From: Corynebacterium hindlerae
Lineage (GTDB): Bacteria; Actinomycetota; Actinomycetes; Mycobacteriales; Mycobacteriaceae
Reading direction: 5' to 3'
DNA: 64,000 nt
Assembly (NCBI RefSeq): GCF_014117265.1
Contig: NZ_CP059833.1
Location: forward strand, 1,271,069-1,335,068
Shown here: piece by piece, positions 52,799-62,911 of the stretch
Position numbering within the stretch: position 1 is the stretch's first letter
How the letters are laid out: each line of letters begins with the position of its first letter
The notes under the pieces: generated by a model
What the model saw: only the letters and a program-made list of their open reading frames with translations
Databases searched by the model: none
What the model was told of the DNA's origin: nothing
Translations under genes and position numbers: made by a program

Positions 52799-52845
52799 TG
52801 CGCCCGGAGGGATTCGAACCCCCAACCTTCTGATCCGTAGTCAGA
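52799..52845 (-). other. Prophage attachment site: 3' fragment of tRNA-Arg(ACG)
   Basis: The minus strand reads TCTGACTACGGATCAGAAGG, then the T arm GGGGGTTCGAATCCC and acceptor CGGGCGC: the anticodon arm (loop CTACGGA, anticodon ACG) to the 3' end of tRNA-Arg. Beyond 52845 the sequence no longer follows a tRNA; D arm and 5' acceptor are absent. This is the displaced chromosomal 3' piece left by integration. The restored full gene should lie at the far end of the prophage, outside the window. Confidence 0.88.
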
Positions 52846-52998
52846 CATTGGTGCGAATCATGCTACACTTCATGCAGCAATTCAACGTGAATGTTGTTGC
52901 ATGGATTCCACTGGGTGCCACCAAGACCCATACCGTTTGCACCACTTTGTGCGACACCTAGCAACCCATGCAGTGCGACACTAAGGAAGGGGCAAACG
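52846..52998. promoter_or_regulatory. Phage attachment arm with short repeats upstream of int
   Basis: Contains CATGCAGCAA/TTGTTGCATG as an inverted pair, TGCACCACTTT, and two GTGCGACAC-type repeats (about 52950 and 52974). The words TGCACCACTTT and GTTGCATGG recur at 54925 and 54961 beyond int. These fit arm-type binding sites of a tyrosine integrase. Confidence 0.5.
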
Positions 52999-55254: not shown

Positions 55255-55335
55255 AGCCCTGTGCACTCGATTCACCACAAATCTCAAACGCACACAGGGC
55301 AAAGGCCCACCCAACAACCACGAAGGGGAACCACT

Positions 55336-56361
55336 ATGGATGTTATCACACCACCAATTAAGGCTGTTCCGCTCGAACCATTCCCCGATGGGAGCATCGA
55401 ATGGCAGCAGCAGCGCCAATCCGGCATCGGATCCTCGGATGCCAGCGTCATCATGGGCATGTCCAACTTCGAATCCCCATACAGCCTGTGGGAGATCAAG
55501 ACCGGACGCGCACCACTCAACCCACCACGCGACCAGCGACAGGAAGAACTGTTGCGTTGGGGTCACCTGCTCGAACCGGTGATCCGTGAGGAAACCAGCA
55601 CTCGCCTAGGCGTCAGCATCATCAAGCCAGACACAGCTTTCCAACACCACGAACGCGCATGGCAGCGCTGCAACCTCGACGGCTGGTCAACCGATGGGCG
55701 GATCTGCGAATTCAAGAACACTAGCTTCTTCATGCGCAAAGAATGGGTCGGACAGATCCCAGACCACGCCGAGATCCAAGTCCACCACAGCGCAGCAGTC
55801 ATCGACGGCGTGGAGCGCGCGATTGTCGCAGGCCTAATTTCAGGCAACGAGCTGTCCATCTTCGAGATCACCATCAACCGGAACGTGGTGGACATGATCA
55901 TCGAGCAGGAAGCGCGCTTTTGGGAGTGCGTCACGTCGGACACTCCCCCGCCTATTGACGGGCACGACCGTACATACCAGGCGCTTACCCGTGAACTCAC
56001 GAACGGCAAGGGCTGGAACGAGGTGGGCGGTAAGGAAGCACGCGCCCTAGTGGAGACCTACTGGTCAGCACACGAACGCGAAAAGGCAGCAAAAGCCGAC
56101 AAGAACACCGCCCGCAACAAACTCGCAGCGATGTTTGACGGCCACGAAGCCATCGCAACCGGCGAAACCGTGTGGGCGAAAACCACACGCGGCCAACTCA
56201 ACATGACGAATCTCGCAGCAGAACATCCTGAATTGGTCGAACGGTACACCCGCCGACTCCCAACCTTTGACCTGGACGCATTCAAAGCCGAACAGCCAGA
56301 GGCCTACCGCCAATTCCAAACCATCAAGATCACCCCACAGAAACTCAAGGAGACCCACTAA
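55336..56361 (+). CDS. YqaJ-type viral recombinase (5'-3' exonuclease)
   Basis: 341 aa. GIGSSDASVIMGMSNFESPY at the start, then NLDGWSTDGRICEFKNTSF carrying the D...ExK metal motif, and a C-terminal helical part. It is the lambda-exonuclease-like partner of RecT, whose gene overlaps its end. Together they make single-strand annealing recombination. The ATG follows GAAGGGGA. A start-associated C/A-rich sequence precedes it. Confidence 0.88.
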   Translation: MDVITPPIKAVPLEPFPDGSIEWQQQRQSGIGSSDASVIMGMSNFESPYSLWEIKTGRAPLNPPRDQRQEELLRWGHLLEPVIREETSTRLGVSIIKPDTAFQHHERAWQRCNLDGWSTDGRICEFKNTSFFMRKEWVGQIPDHAEIQVHHSAAVIDGVERAIVAGLISGNELSIFEITINRNVVDMIIEQEARFWECVTSDTPPPIDGHDRTYQALTRELTNGKGWNEVGGKEARALVETYWSAHEREKAAKADKNTARNKLAAMFDGHEAIATGETVWAKTTRGQLNMTNLAAEHPELVERYTRRLPTFDLDAFKAEQPEAYRQFQTIKITPQKLKETH

Positions 56362-57185
56362 TGTCCGCAAACCTCGAACAGCGCATGTCCCAGCAGATCC
56401 AGCAGCAAGCACCGGAACAACGACGCCCAGCCACCCTGGCAGACCAGATCAAGTCCATGGAGGCACAATTCCAGTTGGCGATGCCTAAGGGCATGGAAGC
56501 GCAGCAATTGGTGCGCGACGCCCTCACTTGCTTGCGCCAGACTCCACAGCTCGCACGCTGCACGCCTCAGTCCGTCCTTGGTGGACTCATGACCTGCTCC
56601 CAACTTGGGCTTCGCCCAGGCGTGCTTGGCCACGCGTGGCTGATCCCGTTCAAGAACCGTGGTGTCGATGAAGCACAGTTGGTCATCGGATACCAGGGAT
56701 TGGTGGAGCTTGCGCACCGTTCCGGTCAGATCAAGTCGCTGATCGCCCGCACCGTCTATGCCAACGATGATTTTGAAGTTGATTATGGCCTGAACGACAG
56801 CCTGGTTCACCGCCCGTGCATGGATGGGGAAAAGGGCGATCCAATCGCCTACTACGCGGTGGCGAAGTTCAACACCGGCGGGCACGCGTTCTACGTCATG
56901 AGCCACTTCGAAATGTTGGAATACAAGCGTAAGAACGTGAAGATGGGCAAGTTCGGCCCATGGGTGGATCACTTCGAATCTATGGCTCACAAGACCTGTG
57001 TGCGTCAGCTTGCTAAGTGGATGCCGAAGTCCACTGATCTTGCGCGTGCTATCGAGCAGGACGGAGCCGTGCGTGAAGACGTGAGCCAGGTCGCTATCGA
57101 CTATCCGGTGCATGTCGATTCTGCAGAGCCTGCAGAGGAAGCCCCAGCTATCGACGGCGAAGTGATCGAGGAACCAGCGGCCTAA
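56361..57185 (+). CDS. recT: RecT single-strand annealing protein
   Basis: 274 aa. VLGGLMTCSQLGLRPGVLGHAWLIPF, LVIGYQGLVELAHRSGQI and DHFESMAHKTCVRQLAKWMP are RecT-family landmarks; the C-terminal ~40 residues are acidic. It starts on the last base of the exonuclease gene (TAATG). It anneals ssDNA made by the exonuclease. Confidence 0.94.
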   Translation: MSANLEQRMSQQIQQQAPEQRRPATLADQIKSMEAQFQLAMPKGMEAQQLVRDALTCLRQTPQLARCTPQSVLGGLMTCSQLGLRPGVLGHAWLIPFKNRGVDEAQLVIGYQGLVELAHRSGQIKSLIARTVYANDDFEVDYGLNDSLVHRPCMDGEKGDPIAYYAVAKFNTGGHAFYVMSHFEMLEYKRKNVKMGKFGPWVDHFESMAHKTCVRQLAKWMPKSTDLARAIEQDGAVREDVSQVAIDYPVHVDSAEPAEEAPAIDGEVIEEPAA

Positions 57186-57211
57186 CCCCGCGCCACGCCC
57201 GCAAAACAACC

Positions 57212-57246
57212 CTGGGGGAGATGCTCAAGTGTCTCCCCCACTTTTC
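57212..57246 (+). terminator. Terminator after recT
   Basis: GGGGGAGA and TCTCCCCC arms around GCTCAAGTG, followed by ACTTTTC, directly before the next small gene. Partial read-through is likely. Confidence 0.65.
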
Positions 57247-57260
57247 ATAGGAACACAAGA

Positions 57261-57467
57261 ATGACCACCACAGACCAGAAGCTAATCCGACGCCAAGCAC
57301 TGCAAGTCTTGACAGAAATGCTCGACAAGTACGCAGATGGCGGTGCCTACGAGCCAGTTACGGAGTTCTTTTGTAATTACGTCATTGTCAACAGCGACGA
57401 ACCACACGTTCAGAGCATGTGGCAAGAATTCTACGAAGCATGGGACCTAGGGAGCCGGTATGCGTAA
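57261..57467 (+). CDS. Hypothetical phage protein (68 aa)
   Basis: 68 aa, mostly helical and acidic, no recognised domain (RRQALQVLTEMLDKYADGG). It overlaps the replication gene by 8 bp, so it is probably translated with it. The start is preceded by AGGAACACAAG. Confidence 0.6.
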   Translation: MTTTDQKLIRRQALQVLTEMLDKYADGGAYEPVTEFFCNYVIVNSDEPHVQSMWQEFYEAWDLGSRYA

Positions 57468-58530
57468 CTACGCTCAGATCCAGCTGGAGATCTGGAACAA
57501 CAGCGGTTTCCGCGCCCTGTCCGGTAACGCTCAGCGCCTTTTCTTCGTCCTGCTGTCCCTCCCCTCCCTGAACCACGCTGGGGTGGGTGATTGGAGGCCT
57601 AAGCGCCTAGCTAAGTTGTGCTCGGACTGGACGGTTGATGATGTGGAAGAGGCCGCAGGTGAGCTTATCCATGGGCTTTTCATTCTCATTGATGAAGAGA
57701 CGGAAGAGTTTTTGATCCGGTCGTTCGTGCGGAATGATCCGTTGATGAAGCAGCCGAATATGGCTACTGCGATGGCTAAGAAGCTTGCTGAGGTGGGGTC
57801 GAATGAGCTTCGTGGTGTTGTTGTTTTTGAGCTTAAAAGGCTTCGTGTTGATGATCCGTCGTTGCCGGGCTGGAAGTCGAAGTCTGCTCAGAATTTGTTG
57901 AATCAGGTGTCTGTTGACCCGTCGGTTTACCCGTTGGGTGATGGGTCTGTTAAGGGGTCTGAAAAGGGGTCGGTTAAGGGGTCAGTTAACCCTTTGGGGA
58001 ACCCATCGGGAAAGGGGTCTAGTGAGGGGTCTGAAAACCCTTTAGGCACCCCTTTATCGAAGGGGTCTGTTAAGGGGTCTGAAAAGGGGTGCCCTACACC
58101 TGCACCTACACCTAACACCTATACACCTGCACCTATTGATTTGGTCGAAACAAGTTCGACCCCAACCCAAGACGATCCGGCGGTTGCCGACAGCAACGAA
58201 TCGACCCCTGAGCCTGAGCCGCCGAAGCAACCACGGGGCACGTATTTGCCGGAGGATTGGGAGCCGTCACCGGAGGCGTGGGCGAAGATGGCGGCTAAGC
58301 ATCCTGGGGTGGACATTGGGCGTGAGACGGAGCGGTTCAAGAATTATTGGCTCGCGGCATCGGGTCAGAATGCGAGGAAGCGTGATTGGACGCGGGCGTG
58401 GTACAACTGGCTCGACCGTGCGACGCCTGTTGCACAGGTGCATCGCCCGGCGCGCGCACGCAACACAGTCGAGGCGTGGCTTGGCCACCCACAGCAGCCA
58501 ACACAGCAGGGTGGTGTGATCGATGTTTAA
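57460..58530 (+). CDS. Phage replication protein (replisome organiser-like) with repeat linker
   Basis: 356 aa. N-terminal winged-helix-like domain (~1-115: NAQRLFFVLLSLPSLNHAG), a low-complexity linker (~160-215) of KGSVKGSEKGS units, and a C-terminal domain (~255-330: YLPEDWEPSPEAWAKMAAKH, NYWLAASGQNARKRDWTRAW) seen in phage replication/primosome proteins. The DNA of the linker is a 12-bp iteron array, so gene and origin probably coincide, as in lambda O. Overlaps the next gene by 8 bp. Confidence 0.75.
   Translation: MRNYAQIQLEIWNNSGFRALSGNAQRLFFVLLSLPSLNHAGVGDWRPKRLAKLCSDWTVDDVEEAAGELIHGLFILIDEETEEFLIRSFVRNDPLMKQPNMATAMAKKLAEVGSNELRGVVVFELKRLRVDDPSLPGWKSKSAQNLLNQVSVDPSVYPLGDGSVKGSEKGSVKGSVNPLGNPSGKGSSEGSENPLGTPLSKGSVKGSEKGCPTPAPTPNTYTPAPIDLVETSSTPTQDDPAVADSNESTPEPEPPKQPRGTYLPEDWEPSPEAWAKMAAKHPGVDIGRETERFKNYWLAASGQNARKRDWTRAWYNWLDRATPVAQVHRPARARNTVEAWLGHPQQPTQQGGVIDV
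57949..58090 (+). repeat. 12-bp iteron array inside the replication gene, probable phage origin
   Basis: AGGGGTC occurs at 57953, 57965, 57977, 58013, 58025, 58061 and 58073, with AGGGGTg at 58085. Every position is an exact multiple of 12 bp from the first: three, two and three copies separated by 36-bp steps. Between them are inverted words (AACCCTTT, ACCCCTTT). This is the pattern of an initiator-bound origin. Confidence 0.65.
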
Positions 58531-58966
58531 CCAAGCGTTGATTGAACACTACCGGGAGGTCGCGGCGAAGGTGCTGGTGATGTGCAAGGACATCAACCCG
58601 CGTTTCCCTAGCCCTGAGAACAATCCGAACATGGCGAACGCGTGGGCGACGGTGTTTAGCCGGTATCCGGTGCCTGCCGGGGCGTATTACGAGGCTGTGG
58701 TGGATTTTTTCGCGCATGACACCGAGGGGGAGGTGCCGACGGCGGGGCAGATCGTGAAGCATTGCAAGCAGGTTGTGGCGCGGTGGGAGTCTGAGCCGGC
58801 TCGCAGGCAGCAGCTCACCCAGTGGCGTGAAGCCAGGCGTGATGCGCGGGATGCGGCGATTGCTGCAGGGACGTTCAGGGGAGCGCTTGCGACACCATCG
58901 ACGTCGGAGCCTGTGGGTGATTTGTCGCCTGCTGGGTTCATGGCCATTTTGGAGTCGAAGCGGTGA
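58523..58966 (+). CDS. Hypothetical phage replication-region protein
   Basis: 147 aa. VLVMCKDINPRFPSPENNPNM then WATVFSRYPVPAGAYYEAV and GEVPTAGQIVKHCKQV, a helical N-terminal domain also seen in small phage proteins downstream of replication initiators. It overlaps the replication gene by 8 bp. A helicase-loader role would fit the position but is inference. Confidence 0.7.
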   Translation: MFNQALIEHYREVAAKVLVMCKDINPRFPSPENNPNMANAWATVFSRYPVPAGAYYEAVVDFFAHDTEGEVPTAGQIVKHCKQVVARWESEPARRQQLTQWREARRDARDAAIAAGTFRGALATPSTSEPVGDLSPAGFMAILESKR

Positions 58967-58981
58967 GTGCGCGCATGGGTT

Positions 58982-59080
58982 GCGCATGGTGCGCTATCAA
59001 CCGTAGGCTTTACGGCCATCACAAAGTTCCACTACCTGCACTTTTTGCCCGCCATGTCGCATAGCTTGCGCATCATGCGC
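58982..59080. promoter_or_regulatory. Intergenic region with GCGCAT palindromes
   Basis: GCGCATCATGCGC (59068-59080) is a perfect 13-bp palindrome; GCGCATGGTGCGC (58982-58994) is the same dyad with one mismatch. They are 86 bp apart in the gap before the 59148 gene, probably flanking a promoter. TGCGCAT also recurs in front of 59605 and 61611. Confidence 0.5.
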
Positions 59081-59104
59081 GCTTGATGTAACATTGAAAT
59101 CACA

Positions 59105-59147
59105 GACGGAGCCACCACCTCCACCCAACAACCACCAAAGGAAAACC
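59105..59147 (+). repeat. Start-associated C/A-rich sequence, copy before 59148
   Basis: GCCACCACCTCCACCCAACA, then ACCACCAAAGGA, just before the ATG. Related copies precede 55336, 59605, 60658 and 61611. Confidence 0.6.
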
Positions 59148-59525
59148 ATGAACACCATCCGCAACAACCACCCAGCCCTCGCACAAGCCATCTACACCAC
59201 CGGCGCCAACCCCACCGGCTCCGGCGTTGACCTCAACAAACTCGAAGACCTCGTTCTCGAAGCAGCCACCCTCATCAACCCGGCCCTCGCGGACACTATC
59301 GCCGAAAACCTTCGCTACGGAGCCACCCTCGAAATCTCCACCGGCGACTGGTTCGACAAAGACATCCAAGTCGAATGGGAATTCATGCCACACAACAGCA
59401 AAGAGACTGAACTCGGATGCGGAACCTTCGAAGAGTTCCTCGGAGAACCAGCCGACATCATGATCAGCATCGGCTTCAACGAACTGGTAGACACCCCACT
59501 AGCCAACCAGGAGGCAGCAGCCTAA
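59148..59525 (+). CDS. Hypothetical phage protein (125 aa)
   Basis: 125 aa, acidic (GDWFDKDIQVEWEFMPHNSK), no domain recognised. The ATG at 59148 follows AAAGGA. Earlier in-frame codons belong to the start-associated repeat. Confidence 0.65.
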   Translation: MNTIRNNHPALAQAIYTTGANPTGSGVDLNKLEDLVLEAATLINPALADTIAENLRYGATLEISTGDWFDKDIQVEWEFMPHNSKETELGCGTFEEFLGEPADIMISIGFNELVDTPLANQEAAA

Positions 59526-59560
59526 CAAAAGCATTGGGGGGGGCGCGCATCCACCACCAC

Positions 59561-59593
59561 GCGCACCACACCACCGAAATAACCACCAAAGGA
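59561..59593 (+). repeat. Start-associated C/A-rich sequence, copy before 59605
   Basis: GCGCACCACACCACCGAAAT, then AACCACCAAAGGAG, preceded by GGGGGGGGCGCGCATCC. Nearly the same as the copies before 60658 and 61611. Confidence 0.7.
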
Positions 59594-59604
59594 GAACCCC
59601 CACA

Positions 59605-59964
59605 ATGGGCACCTGGAACACCCTCACCGAAGAACTGCAAGACCAGTTCAACGACATCGCCACCGTGCAGCGCATTCCACTCGACAAATGCATCATCAAC
59701 AAAAACGATGGCGTGCACTACATGACCGCGGATAAAAGCCGCGAAGCAGGTGGCGGGACGCTGCGACACACGTTGTATGCATCCAGTGCAGACGGGAAAA
59801 CCATCGATAGATGTTTCACGATGATCACCTACCTGCGTGAAGGCGAATACCACAAAATCTTGGAGTGGTCACCGCTCTCAGTGGGTATTCCCCGCCACAC
59901 TGTGGAAAACATCGTTGAAATGTTTTTTCAGCAAAATAACATCGAACCACTGGAGGTGGCATAA
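59605..59964 (+). CDS. Hypothetical phage protein (119 aa)
   Basis: 119 aa, no recognised domain (TVQRIPLDKCIINKNDGVHY, TVENIVEMFFQQNN). GGAG lies 10 nt before the ATG. It ends 2 nt before ssb, so the two are likely co-translated. Confidence 0.65.
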   Translation: MGTWNTLTEELQDQFNDIATVQRIPLDKCIINKNDGVHYMTADKSREAGGGTLRHTLYASSADGKTIDRCFTMITYLREGEYHKILEWSPLSVGIPRHTVENIVEMFFQQNNIEPLEVA

Positions 59965-59966
59965 CA

Positions 59967-60398
59967 ATGGCATACACCACGATCGTCGGAACCGTCGGTA
60001 AAGACCCGGAACTTAAGTTCACCAACAACGGCAAGGCCTACACCCGCGTGGGCATTGCCTGGTCTGAGCGGGTGAAAGATCGCAACGGTAACTGGGATGA
60101 CGGCCCCACCGTGTGGGTGTCCGCCACAGTGTTCGGCAAGCAAGCCGAAAACCTTGCGGACAGCATCACCAAGGGTATGCGGGTCGCAGCAACCGGGCAT
60201 CTGAAACCGGAAACGTGGGCCTCGCAGCAGGGGGAACAAACAGTGTTCACGATGGTGGCTGACACGATCGCCCCGGAACTGACGTTCCACACCGCTGCGT
60301 TGACGAAGCCAGCTGCGCAACAGCAACCACAGCAGGATGTGCGGAACAGTGCCCCACCAGCTGGAGGGAATGCCACCGATGATCAGCCACCGTTCTGA
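59967..60398 (+). CDS. ssb: Single-stranded DNA-binding protein (phage)
   Basis: 143 aa. OB fold: MAYTTIVGTVGKDPELKFTN, VWVSATVFGKQAENLADSIT, GMRVAATGHLK, with a Gln/Pro-rich linker and the acidic tip DDQPPF that recruits partner proteins. Works with the RecT and replication genes. Confidence 0.94.
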   Translation: MAYTTIVGTVGKDPELKFTNNGKAYTRVGIAWSERVKDRNGNWDDGPTVWVSATVFGKQAENLADSITKGMRVAATGHLKPETWASQQGEQTVFTMVADTIAPELTFHTAALTKPAAQQQPQQDVRNSAPPAGGNATDDQPPF

Positions 60399-60585
60399 CA
60401 CTATGCCCACACAGGATCGCTTCACCACCCAGCAGGCCGCCGACATTCTCGGACTTAGCCGGATGACGTTGTGTCGGTGGCGTCGATCAGGAATCGGCCC
60501 GCCGTGGGTGCGGGTCAGTGAGCGGAAGATTATCTACCCTCGCCGTGAGTTTTACGCGTGGGTTGCTGAGAACCGCGCCAACTAA
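60379..60585 (+). CDS. Small HTH (excisionase-like) DNA-binding protein
   Basis: 68 aa with FTTQQAADILGLSRMTLCRW and a wing (ERKIIYPRREFYAWVAEN), HTH_17 type. The ATG at 60379 has GGAGGG upstream and overlaps ssb by 20 bp; ATG 60403 is an alternative without a ribosome site. Second protein of this type in the prophage, so one of the two could be the excisionase. Confidence 0.75.
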   Translation: MISHRSDTMPTQDRFTTQQAADILGLSRMTLCRWRRSGIGPPWVRVSERKIIYPRREFYAWVAENRAN

Positions 60586-60613
60586 CCACTTGCAGGGGCG
60601 CGACTGCTTTAAC

Positions 60614-60648
60614 GCGCACCACCACACCACCCAATAACCACCAAGGAC
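60614..60648 (+). repeat. Start-associated C/A-rich sequence, copy before 60658
   Basis: GCGCACCACCACACCACCCA, then ATAACCACCAAGGA, preceded by GGGGCGCGACTG. The Shine-Dalgarno bases are its last positions. Confidence 0.7.
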
Positions 60649-60657
60649 AAACCGCCA

Positions 60658-61392
60658 ATGGCGAAGCTCACCAAACAAGAAGCAAAACTACACGAACAGG
60701 CCGAAAAACTGTTAGAAAAGGACACGCTGACGTTCGACGACAAACTGTTCATCCTTGAGCACTGGCAGGAATCAGCCACCAACGTCAACTCAACTCACGG
60801 CGCGTTCTTCACCCCATGGGGGTTAGCATCCGAGTTCGCCATGGAAGCCAGCTACCACCGCGACGCTCGCATCATCGACCTGTGTGCAGGCATCGGCGCC
60901 TTGTCGTTGGCGGTGCTGGACTTACACAAACACCGCAACATCACCCTGGACATCGTGTGCGTGGAAATGAACCCCGAATACGTGGCCGTCGGCAAGAAGA
61001 TCGTTCCCGAAGCAACCTGGATCAACTCTGACGTGTTCGACCTCCCAGACCTCGGGCGCTTCGACATGGCGATCAGTAATCCCCCGTTCGGGAAGATCAA
61101 AACCGACCACAAGCCACCCCGATACAAGGGCGCTGAGTTCGAGTACAAAATCCTCGATCTAGCAGGCACTATAGCCGACACCGGCGCATACATCATCCCC
61201 CAGGGTTCAGCACCGTTCGCTTTCTCAGGCAAGCAGTATTTCGACCGCTGGGAGCAGCAGAAATACAAGAAATTCCACCGGGAAACCGGCATCCACATCG
61301 ACATCGGCTGTGGCCTAGACACCAACCAATTCCGCGACCAGTGGAAAGGTGTCTCCCCCATCGTCGAGGTCTGCACCACCGAACATTTTTAG
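60658..61392 (+). CDS. SAM-dependent (N6-adenine type) DNA methyltransferase
   Basis: 244 aa. SAM motif IDLCAGIGALSLAVLD and catalytic NPPF in FDMAISNPPFGKIK, as in N6-adenine or related amino-methyltransferases. No specificity domain or partner endonuclease is visible, so it is probably an orphan phage methylase that protects phage DNA or alters regulation. Confidence 0.8.
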   Translation: MAKLTKQEAKLHEQAEKLLEKDTLTFDDKLFILEHWQESATNVNSTHGAFFTPWGLASEFAMEASYHRDARIIDLCAGIGALSLAVLDLHKHRNITLDIVCVEMNPEYVAVGKKIVPEATWINSDVFDLPDLGRFDMAISNPPFGKIKTDHKPPRYKGAEFEYKILDLAGTIADTGAYIIPQGSAPFAFSGKQYFDRWEQQKYKKFHRETGIHIDIGCGLDTNQFRDQWKGVSPIVEVCTTEHF

Positions 61393-61610
61393 GACACCAC
61401 CCAAATGACCGCCCGTAAACGAATCCCATTCAAAACCATGCTCAACACCCGCCCCCGACCTCCAACTCATGGCACTCATGCGCTACTGGTGGCTCGACAC
61501 CGAACCGGGCCGTCACCGCAAGGCATAGAGCCGGCCCCCCGGGGGTGCGCATCGGAAAAATCAACGCACACACCACACCACCGAAATAACCCAACACCTA
61601 GGAGAAAACC
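61393..61610. other. Gap without a supportable gene; start-associated repeat at its end
   Basis: 218 bp. Open frames here lack ribosome sites and protein character (Pro/Arg/His-rich composition). At 61543-61603 lie GGGGGTGCGCATCGG and then CGCACACACCACACCACCGA with AATAACCCAACACC, the start-associated element of the gene at 61611. Confidence 0.55.
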
Positions 61611-61730
61611 ATGCGTAAAAACACCACCACCCCACAGAGAACCAGCCTGCACCAGTCACTGATCGACTTTGCTGGCGGGGCTGTGTTCGGGTCCCTGATC
61701 GTTCTGATCCTCGCCCTCGCCGCGTTCTAG
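61611..61730 (+). CDS. Small single-helix membrane protein (39 aa)
   Basis: 39 aa: polar N-terminus, then GGAVFGSLIVLILALAAF, one membrane helix reaching the C-terminus. AGGAG sits 7 nt before the ATG, and a start-associated repeat precedes it. Function unknown. Confidence 0.65.
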   Translation: MRKNTTTPQRTSLHQSLIDFAGGAVFGSLIVLILALAAF

Positions 61731-62140: not shown

Positions 62141-62268
62141 TGGCCTGGGAAGAACCAGAAGAGATGGACAGGAATTTTTACCGCGACTTTGGGAAGAAGA
62201 AGACGCGGACACGGATTCAGACCTCGCCTATGAGCTTAGGAAGGACGAACGATGAGCAAGCATTTTGA
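62140..62268 (+). CDS. Hypothetical phage protein (42 aa)
   Basis: 42 aa, charged (MAWEEPEEMDRNFYRDFGKK). The ATG overlaps the previous stop by one base and GAAAGGA is upstream. It overlaps the next gene by 17 bp. Low complexity; no known domain. Confidence 0.5.
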   Translation: MAWEEPEEMDRNFYRDFGKKKTRTRIQTSPMSLGRTNDEQAF

Positions 62269-62911
62269 ACTGACAGATGAGACGATCACGACGCATGGAA
62301 GGATGTTGCGTCGGATTAGGGCTACACGCGACCTCTCTCAGCATTGTGTGAAGGCCGGTGATTTAGGGGGGTTTGTGGAGTCGGAGGATAATCTCGCCGG
62401 TGACGCGTGGGTGTCCGGTGACGCGTGGGTGTCCGGTGACGCGTGGGTGTCCGGCAACGCGCGGGTGACCGGTGACGCGCAGGTGTCCGGCAACGCGCGG
62501 GTGACCGGCAACGCGCGGGTGACCGGTGACGCGCAGGTGTCCGGCAACGCGCGGGTGACCGGCAACGCGCGGGTGACCGGCAACGCGCGGGTGACCGGTG
62601 ACGCGCAGGTGACCGGCAACGCGCGGGTGACCGGTGACGCGCAGGTGACCAGCAGTAGGCACGTCCTGACTCTCTCCCCAATCGGGGCAGAAAACCAAAC
62701 CGTCACGCTCTGCAAAACCACCACAGGGCACACCCTAAAAGTCGGATGCTGGACAGGCACAGCCGACACCCTCATGGAAGAAGTCGCCCGCAGACGCGAA
62801 AAATACTGGGGCGACAACGAAACCCGAAACCAGCTCCTCACCAGCGAATACGAGTCAGTTCTTGTCCTGGTACAGAACCGGATCAAAGAATGGGAGATTG
62901 AGAGTGTCTAA
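62252..62911 (+). CDS. Hexapeptide-repeat (beta-helix-like) phage protein
   Basis: 219 aa. After a ~50-residue start come 14 hexapeptides of the form G[DN]A[WRQ]V[ST] (~50-133), then an 80-residue globular end (QTVTLCKTTTGHTLKVGCWT). Every-sixth-residue small/aliphatic packing fits a left-handed beta-helix. The C-terminal part is like small phage proteins with the same repeat. AAGGA precedes the ATG. Role unknown; DNA-mimic or scaffold functions are possible guesses. Confidence 0.7.
   Translation: MSKHFELTDETITTHGRMLRRIRATRDLSQHCVKAGDLGGFVESEDNLAGDAWVSGDAWVSGDAWVSGNARVTGDAQVSGNARVTGNARVTGDAQVSGNARVTGNARVTGNARVTGDAQVTGNARVTGDAQVTSSRHVLTLSPIGAENQTVTLCKTTTGHTLKVGCWTGTADTLMEEVARRREKYWGDNETRNQLLTSEYESVLVLVQNRIKEWEIESV
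62399..62650 (+). repeat. 14 tandem 18-bp repeats inside the hexapeptide gene
   Basis: Unit GGTGACGCGTGGGTGTCC and variants (GGCAACGCGCGGGTGACC, GGTGACGCGCAGGTGTCC), 14 units of 18 bp with no indels. Long identical runs make it a likely variable-number repeat; changes by whole units keep the frame. Confidence 0.9.

Follow-up and report, generated by a model that had tools for sequence, protein, structure and literature searches.

A predicted pseudoknot anchored behind stop codons in the early region of a Corynebacterium hindlerae prophage and in other phages and plasmids

The early region of a prophage of Corynebacterium hindlerae, contained in the 64,000-nt stretch of DNA analysed here (NZ_CP059833.1, positions 1,271,069-1,335,068 of the forward strand; assembly GCF_014117265.1; hereafter, the window), carries a repeated element that appears to fold, as RNA, into an H-type pseudoknot, is anchored to the stop codon of the upstream gene, and recurs in other phages and in plasmids. 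A preliminary description of this DNA had reported related C/A-rich sequences before five genes, at 55336, 59148, 59605, 60658, and 61611, all of them in the early region. The full unit is common to three of these places (before 59605, 60658, and 61611), whereas the sites before 59148 and 55336 share the leader only. That a repeated, strand-specific junction element exists in this region is borne out by three copies on the + strand and by relatives elsewhere; what had been missed is that the three strong copies begin shortly after a stop codon.

Results

Architecture of the element

The repeated unit is, as far as its compensated stems indicate, an H-type pseudoknot, with two stems (S1 and S2) and three loops (L1 to L3) in the order S1a-L1-S2a-L2-S1b-L3-S2b, and its core can be written S1a-GGG-xyGCG-L2-S1b-L3-CGCy'x'. 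The element spans roughly 26-45 nt, with a defined core of ~35 nt. S1 comprises 3 to at least 8 bp and is free in sequence, L1 is GGG, S2 pairs xyGCG with CGCy'x', L2 is CAY in most cases, with AC in window copy 2, and L3 is variable, its 3' end often being A-rich (AATCA, AATAA, TAAAA). In the plasmid form, GGGGA-GGGGCGCG-CAT-TCCCC-AATCA-CGCGCACC, the second stem crosses the first, and of the three window copies, two have GGGGCGCG/CGCGCACC and the third GGGGTGCG/CGCACACC, that is, a compensated stem. S1 varies among relatives in the same compensated manner (CGGA/TCCG, TGGA/TCCA, AGGT/ACCT, CCG/CGG), including the variants on contigs that match mycobacteriophages (CCCCAGGC/GCCTGGGG, CCCTAGAT/ATCTAGGG, and CCCTAGGT/ACCTAGGG), and the 8-bp form is present on two viral contigs (52,088 and 52,474 nt).

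A scan of the 60 kb from window coordinate 51932 onwards located GGGG[CT]GCG...CGC[GA]CAC followed by ACCACACCACC(G)AAATAACC at 59540, 60595, and 61542, the GGGG[CT]GCG unit occurring on the + strand only, with none on the - strand. A relaxed pseudoknot descriptor applied to the same 60 kb picked out precisely these three + strand copies, had no match on the - strand, and gave 0 or 1 match in each of 20 base-shuffled versions. The GGGG[CT]GCGC string previously noted upstream of three genes is thus the 5' half of the pseudoknot, the 3' strand of which opens the C/A tract; the GGGG[CT]GCG unit is indeed present at all three sites, but the one at 60595 reads GGGGCGCGA rather than GGGG[CT]GCGC. 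Searched across the complete 2.68-Mb genome with at most 3 mismatches allowed, CACCACACCACCNAAATAACC matches twice, both times at these sites, and its reversed control 0 times; the third copy escapes this search through a one-base deletion.

Copy 1 (59537-59564, + strand) starts 11 nt behind the TAA (59523-59525) of the gene at 59148 and consists of S1a GGG (59537-59539), L1 GGG (59540-59542), S2a GCGCG (59543-59547), L2 CA (59548-59549), S1b TCC (59550-59552), L3 (59553-59559), and S2b CGCGC (59560-59564), the register of S1 being ambiguous within a run of 8 G. Copy 2 (60592-60617, + strand), 6 nt behind the TAA (60583-60585) of an excisionase-like helix-turn-helix (HTH) gene, has S1a GCA (60592-60594), L1 GGG (60595-60597), S2a GCGCG, L2 AC, S1b TGC, L3 TTTAA, and S2b CGCGC (60613-60617). 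Covariance model R1 (10 members) recovers these two copies at E 3.8e-9 and 1.7e-6, respectively, values that are not independent, both copies having belonged to its training set. Copy 3 (61539-61569, + strand), 10 nt behind the TAG (61526-61528) of a small upstream reading frame, is missed by the model and detected by pattern and descriptor alone; it comprises S1a CCG (61539-61541), L1 GGG (61542-61544), S2a GTGCG, L2 CAT, S1b CGG, L3 AAAAATCAA, and S2b CGCAC (61565-61569), with a T-A pair in S2 where the others have C-G.

Tests of the pairing

Alignment A6 consists of 38 model-aligned members, including the C. striatum copy and omitting window copy 3, that were aligned with S2 in the model and S1 outside it. 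In A6, 88.7% of the cells pair, and covariation is 0.263 vs 0.082 in shuffled alignments and at most 0.050 when the partners are slid by 1-3 columns. Pair 16-42 is CG in 28 members, AU in 6, GC in 3, and UA in 1, with none broken, and pair 11-23 is AU in 24, UA in 11, and GC in 1, with 2 broken.

Because some members of A6 had been found by pattern, blind tests were added in IMG/VR, with S1 free, one S2 base pair set, and the end of L3 fixed to TCA. The paired settings returned 60 (C-G) and 33 (A-T) stretches and the mispaired ones 1 (A/G) and 14 (C/T); after collapse within the four scans, with one match at a locus edge skipped, 52, 24, 1, and 3 distinct stretches were left (Fisher's exact p 4.3e-16, 2x2). 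Collapse across all loci, some of which came from earlier paired patterns, gives 57, 25, 1, and 3, and the four-scan counts are preferred. The free S1 reached at least 3 bp in 43/52 (C-G), 21/24 (A-T), 0/1 (A/G), and 0/3 (C/T), or in 64 of the 76 matches with a paired S2 vs 0 of the 4 mispaired ones, with shuffled-partner maxima of 20/52 and 12/24; at least 4 bp were formed in 22/52 and 6/24 (shuffled maxima 11 and 5). With an earlier pattern, S1 of at least 4 bp was found in 16/39 (shuffled maximum 6) and in 1/120 bacterial background loci; this background, picked by a loose stem pattern, includes at least 118 stretches from many phyla and gave 3 descriptor matches in 1.77 Mb, both strands counted. 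When N and W were left free in a further pattern set, N paired in 21/23, W in 21/23, and the outer pair in 15/23, and in a third set, S1 of at least 3 bp was formed in 21/21 (shuffled mean 11.3, maximum 18). Together, these sequence comparisons indicate two crossing stems with compensatory changes, as expected of an H-type RNA pseudoknot.

Position relative to stop and start codons

Spacing was assessed in 70 distinct paired members with S1 of at least 3 bp, the loops of which were fixed to TCA by the patterns. An upstream frame, defined as at least 50 codons ending within about 63 nt of the element, was found for 64 of the 70; the stop lies within 14 nt of S1 in 51/64, and the counts peak at 6-10 nt. 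Among the 60 members for which both neighbours were found, S1 begins 6-10 nt past the stop in 37, a number reached in 0 of 5000 uniform placings within the same gaps (mean 8.7, maximum 19). Setting aside 15 or 25 nt for a leader leaves 28/45 and 22/37 members in the 6-10 nt class (0/5000 each), and the looser measure, at most 14 nt, is reached by 1 and 13 of 5000 placings. On the start side, the same uniform placing of the 60 members revealed no comparable pull. The anchor of the element is the stop of the preceding gene rather than the following start, and the term "start-associated" in the preliminary description does not describe it.

A next start was found for 64 of the 70 members, at a median of 31 nt further on and at less than 60 nt in 57 of them; most copies, therefore, lie inside operons. 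A crude test of neighbour orientation based on open reading frame (ORF) calls, too noisy in GC-rich DNA to be relied upon, gave 26 same/same, 9 same/opposite, and 5 opposite/same among 65 members, with 23 inside an ORF call and 2 others.

Distribution among phages, plasmids, and genomes

Copies were sought in the rest of the prophage and elsewhere, and the search was productive: the three in the prophage region are joined by others in a corynephage, mycobacteriophages, and plasmids. A pattern built for the compensated stem first turned up the same unit on a plasmid-like contig from a different Corynebacterium, and subsequently on other plasmids and chromosomes of the genus. On one plasmid-like contig (L129, 3872-9000), near-identical long repeats flank successive gene cassettes, two of them with the pseudoknot. 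The plasmid copies number two each in C. stationis and C. faecale and one each in C. tuberculostearicum and C. striatum. At the sequence level, the element is present in the Mycobacterium phages Gaia, Onyinye, Faith1, and Tourach and in the Corynebacterium phage Stickynote; for phages Leopard and Aikoy, there is a BLAST match only, at E 1. Faith1 and Tourach have their closest annotated stop at a greater distance upstream of the element; in Tourach, a short frame absent from the annotation ends 8 nt ahead of S1. Phage Adzzy shares the flanks and is without the motif; the same gap contains another long-range inverted repeat (GGGTTGGGG...CCCCAACCC; L335, 1587-1747), so that structures seem to have been swapped at one junction between Adzzy and the relatives with the pseudoknot. 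The window region 59.1-62.3 kb itself has no DNA similarity to phages, and an IMG/VR search with the tail pattern gave 0 matches.

The element also occurs in environmental viruses, with locus GC across carriers of 34-68%. In one virus of 40% GC (G1014), the model gives 9 matches over the whole record (E of 1 or better), the descriptor 6 sites, plus one judged to be chance, over the 60 kb that were read, and the two together 10 distinct sites, all on one strand. Several of these copies (L306-L308) have a second repeated unit, TTTGCGGCAAACAC or nearly so, behind them, followed by a promoter-like TTGACT...TGATAGAGT, and one precedes a tRNA gene. At three other loci (L166 near 3297, and L136 and L138), CTTGACATCCACC or a close variant stands directly behind the pseudoknot, a sequence that we take to be the reverse complement of an L5-type stoperator.

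A covariance search of the genus matched 42 of 242 genomes at E 0.1. Among the matches inspected, which took in a minority of the weaker rows, ten genomes were judged by context to be real carriers (the host genome of the prophage, G012, G036, G044, G070, G072, G179, G182, G205, and G230); four loci at 27-32 bits (L232, L235, L238, L239) were rejected as coding-like or lacking the AATCA loop, and one match (L237) proved to be a CRISPR spacer. Outside the genus, under filters stricter than those used within it, E 0.001 was reached by 6 of 396 further genomes from the order and by 10 of 395 further ones from the phylum. In 8 of the 16 outside-genus loci, those that were read, the motif is present but looks like a chance match in coding sequence, and the eight matches read included no convincing copy outside Corynebacterium, the searches having covered 397 genomes from the order and 396 from the phylum. 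In the chromosome of G012, a CRISPR array (repeat GTGCTCCCCGCGTAAGCGGGGATGAGCCC) contains a spacer (L237, 4295-4336) matching the 5' part of the pseudoknot, and the element is therefore a recorded target of immunity.

C/A-rich leaders and the prophage context

Behind the three window copies, C/A-rich leaders run up to the Shine-Dalgarno (SD) sequence of the next gene: at 59565-59604 before the gene at 59605, at 60618-60657 before the DNA methyltransferase gene (60658-61392), and at 61570-61610 before the small gene at 61611, all on the + strand. The two leader-only relatives, also on the + strand, occupy 59113-59147, before the gene at 59148, and 55299-55335, before the YqaJ/RecE-like exonuclease gene, and pattern and descriptor found neither GGGG[CT]GCG nor a pseudoknot at either site. 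In the corresponding repeat family (D3, 35 nt), identity to the 59113 copy is 66% at 55299, 77% at 59564, and 74% at 60619. The five leaders have a C+A fraction of 0.76-0.87 and a T fraction of 0.02-0.04. A C+A fraction of at least 0.75 is found in 5.1% of all + strand 45-mers across 55-64 kb, and even the coding stretch preceding the coupled gene 56361 reaches 0.80; C/A richness by itself is weak evidence. The assertion that nearly every non-coupled early gene has such a leader goes too far, given that gene 57261 follows a 75-nt gap that contains a terminator-like hairpin and is without a C/A leader. This hairpin, within 57186-57260 between recT and the next gene, reads TGGGGGAGATGCTCAAGTGTCTCCCCCA followed by CTTTTC.

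In the relatives examined, the tract behind the pseudoknot differs from the T-poor C/A type, and because it is not kept there, the C/A leader is not the defining part of the element. What the relatives share is the pseudoknot, and the C/A tract cannot be upheld as the conserved unit. The notion of a T-poor, unstructured translation enhancer accordingly leaves out the pseudoknot core; in the window copies, the leader may still help initiation, a role for which the ACA/CA-rich translation enhancers described in enterobacteria offer a precedent (PMC3879156).

Recognised prophage genes encode an integrase, the RecE-like exonuclease, RecT, a replication initiator, SSB, the excisionase-like HTH protein, and the DNA methyltransferase. 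The gene at 59605 (119 aa) has no Pfam or PHROG match and is followed by the SSB gene at 59967. The small gene upstream of copy 3 (61405-61528) displays an apparent frame change at a C run (CGCCCCCGACC), for which sequencing error, decay, and frameshift are the candidates. Further downstream, the reading frame at 62252-62911 contains an 18-bp tandem repeat, six residues per unit, and matches PHROGs 7964 and 5070, of unknown function. At the other side, a weak tRNA match adjoins the integrase gene (52807-52860; 25.5 bits vs a gathering score of 29), a possible attachment site in a tRNA end.

Discussion

Proposed function

The strand, the stop spacing, and the position within operons argue for action at the mRNA level. 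Building on these, on the sequence family itself, on the pairing of both stems, and on the presence on mobile elements, we tentatively favour, at somewhat short of even confidence, a cis-acting mRNA element that is located where one cistron meets the next in phage and plasmid operons and would act as a boundary. By toeprint geometry, the leading edge of a terminating ribosome lies ~6-10 nt past the stop. With S1 at 6-10 nt, the element would stand just outside that ribosome, and thus its fold could persist during upstream translation. In this scenario, the element would fold as RNA, stay folded while ribosomes terminate upstream, and create a boundary on the polycistronic mRNA that would block processive enzymes (exoribonucleases, Rho) or, alternatively, stop post-termination ribosomes from running on; the outcome would be that neighbouring cistrons of one transcript are expressed independently. 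The C/A leader of the prophage copies would be an ordinary ribosome-landing tract. We propose no partner protein, and the element might act alone or with a host factor; because unrelated phages and plasmids share it, a host factor or the ribosome seems likelier as the binding partner than any one phage protein.

Several observations weigh against this proposal. S1 is as short as 3 bp in some copies, the outermost tested S1 pair of A6 (7-27) is unpaired in 25/38 members, and two of the five A6 measures do not exceed shuffles (pairs with both sides changed, 4 vs 3.9; further pair types, 15 vs 13.2). Pseudoknot-free folds of the window copies are no better than those of shuffled sequences (z -0.48, -0.12, and +1.37), although the folding program cannot draw pseudoknots, and these scores neither help nor settle the matter. 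The kept loop bases (GGG, CA) demand more than a plain roadblock. The stop is more than 14 nt away in 13/64, a group of viruses (L139, L141, L148, L149) has the element ~43 nt past the stop and close to the start, and the stop distances as such hinge on greedy extension of S1 and simple ORF rules.

It is possible, although doubtful, that the element instead serves the downstream gene as a 5'-leader translation element, the pseudoknot and leader recruiting the 30S subunit (via S1 protein or a standby site) or forming a repressor operator in the manner of gene 32. The next start is usually close (see above), the window leader extends to the SD, the L139-type viruses have the element near the start, and there are precedents, namely, the T4 gp32 pseudoknot with its unstructured tract (PMC3014915) and the CA/ACA enhancers together with ACA in pseudoknot ligands of S1 (PMC3879156). 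The SSB gene in the operon behind copy 1 makes an SSB operator conceivable, as a candidate role only. However, the start is within 20 nt in 21/60 members vs 33.3 expected under uniform placing, a comparison that the need for a leader biases on the start side; the copies precede many unrelated genes; in C. striatum, the annotation shows a convergent gene next; and a promoter-like site follows the element in 3/70 members vs 0/70 control stretches. The latter sites, which resemble sigma70 promoters, together with the short T runs or promoter-like sequences read by eye behind some G1014 copies, would suit a transcriptional element, such as a terminator-like RNA, one that causes pausing or put-like antitermination, or an obstacle to Rho in the untranslated junction. 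We consider this improbable: an intrinsic terminator was rejected for the window, where a C/A-rich tract and not a T run follows all three copies, and with the next starts following after ~40 nt, a distance that gives promoters little space, strong termination is unlikely there.

A structure formed in single-stranded DNA for replication, conjugation, or single-strand promoter activity, an option that has also been raised for STAXI (PMC2864571), would be in keeping with the location of the C. stationis, C. faecale, and C. striatum copies ~2.2-2.7 kb from mobF, a gene present in 3 of 4 annotated plasmid stretches, and with the replication and recombination genes of the prophage early region. Yet the element has a fixed sense relative to genes, is placed by stop codons, which matter in mRNA, and is present in tailed dsDNA phages, all of which render a DNA-level role highly improbable. 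The spacing also evokes readthrough, an 8-nt spacer being that of retroviral readthrough pseudoknots. A stimulator of stop-codon readthrough or frameshifting is, nevertheless, exceedingly improbable as the general function: an open frame is not kept among the members, given that the frame past the stop closes within 10 codons in 11/64 and after 8 codons behind copy 2, and the stop is TAA in 38/64. The open stretch past the stop has a median of 27.5 codons in the 64 members, and single cases of readthrough could occur.

The broader claim, that the boundary element represents a new, widespread class of mobile-element RNA in which a stop-anchored pseudoknot serves as an enzyme-resistant cistron boundary across unrelated phages and plasmids, we regard as unlikely. 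If true, such a boundary would be a prokaryotic counterpart of the exoribonuclease-resistant viral RNAs. The family makes the setting of expression cistron by cistron in long phage operons directly testable, and the element might provide actinobacterial expression systems with a portable part for gene junctions.

Relationship to known systems

The covariance models of Rfam 15, STAXI and the riboswitches among them, gave 0 overlapping matches in the window at 52-64 kb (E up to 5) and in two further sets of loci, one of 6 (E up to 2) and one of 7 (E up to 5), and no description of the element was found in the titles and opening lines of abstracts listed by searches of open-licence PMC papers; it is from the literature searches and Rfam alone that we take the element not to be in print.

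Among the known systems, STAXI (RF01728) is alike in being a mobile-element pseudoknot of unknown function. It lies close to genes for DNA handling, those for SSB, antirestriction, and integrase among them, consists of two or, usually, three tandem repeats with frequent UUCG tetraloops, and is found in Enterobacteriales (PMC2864571). The element described here, in contrast, is mostly present once per junction, anchored to stops, and without an Rfam match, and does not fit the STAXI definition.

The preliminary description compared the logic of the repeats with that of the start-associated sequences (SAS) of cluster K mycobacteriophages, while noting that the sequence differs. The latter point stands; the start-anchored logic is not shared. 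SAS is an asymmetric 13-mer, GGGATAGGAGCCC, located at starts in the non-structural region, almost always in one orientation, with the inverted repeats of ESAS upstream of it (PMC3203893). The likeness lies in repetition, strand bias, and upstream inverted repeats. However, the 13-bp GGGATAGGAGCCC is not in the five window leaders, and in the element, unlike SAS, loops and pairing are kept while stems vary; with a different sequence and an anchor at upstream stops rather than starts, membership in SAS/ESAS was rejected.

The CA/ACA enhancers (yifK, dppA, gltI), C/A-rich tracts upstream of the SD (PMC3879156), describe at most the leader behind the pseudoknot. The gene 32 leader of T4, T2, and RB69, whose definition the element does not fit either, is alike in being an mRNA pseudoknot of phages with an unstructured tract behind it that reaches the ribosome-binding site. 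In T4, gp32 binds a pseudoknot 67 nt upstream of the start and then the unstructured tract, in what a 2010 account called possibly the only viral example of a pseudoknot in translational autoregulation (PMC3014915). The gene 32 leader, however, is a matter of one gene and one protein, whereas the element reported here stands ahead of many genes unrelated to one another, with its position tied to the preceding stop.

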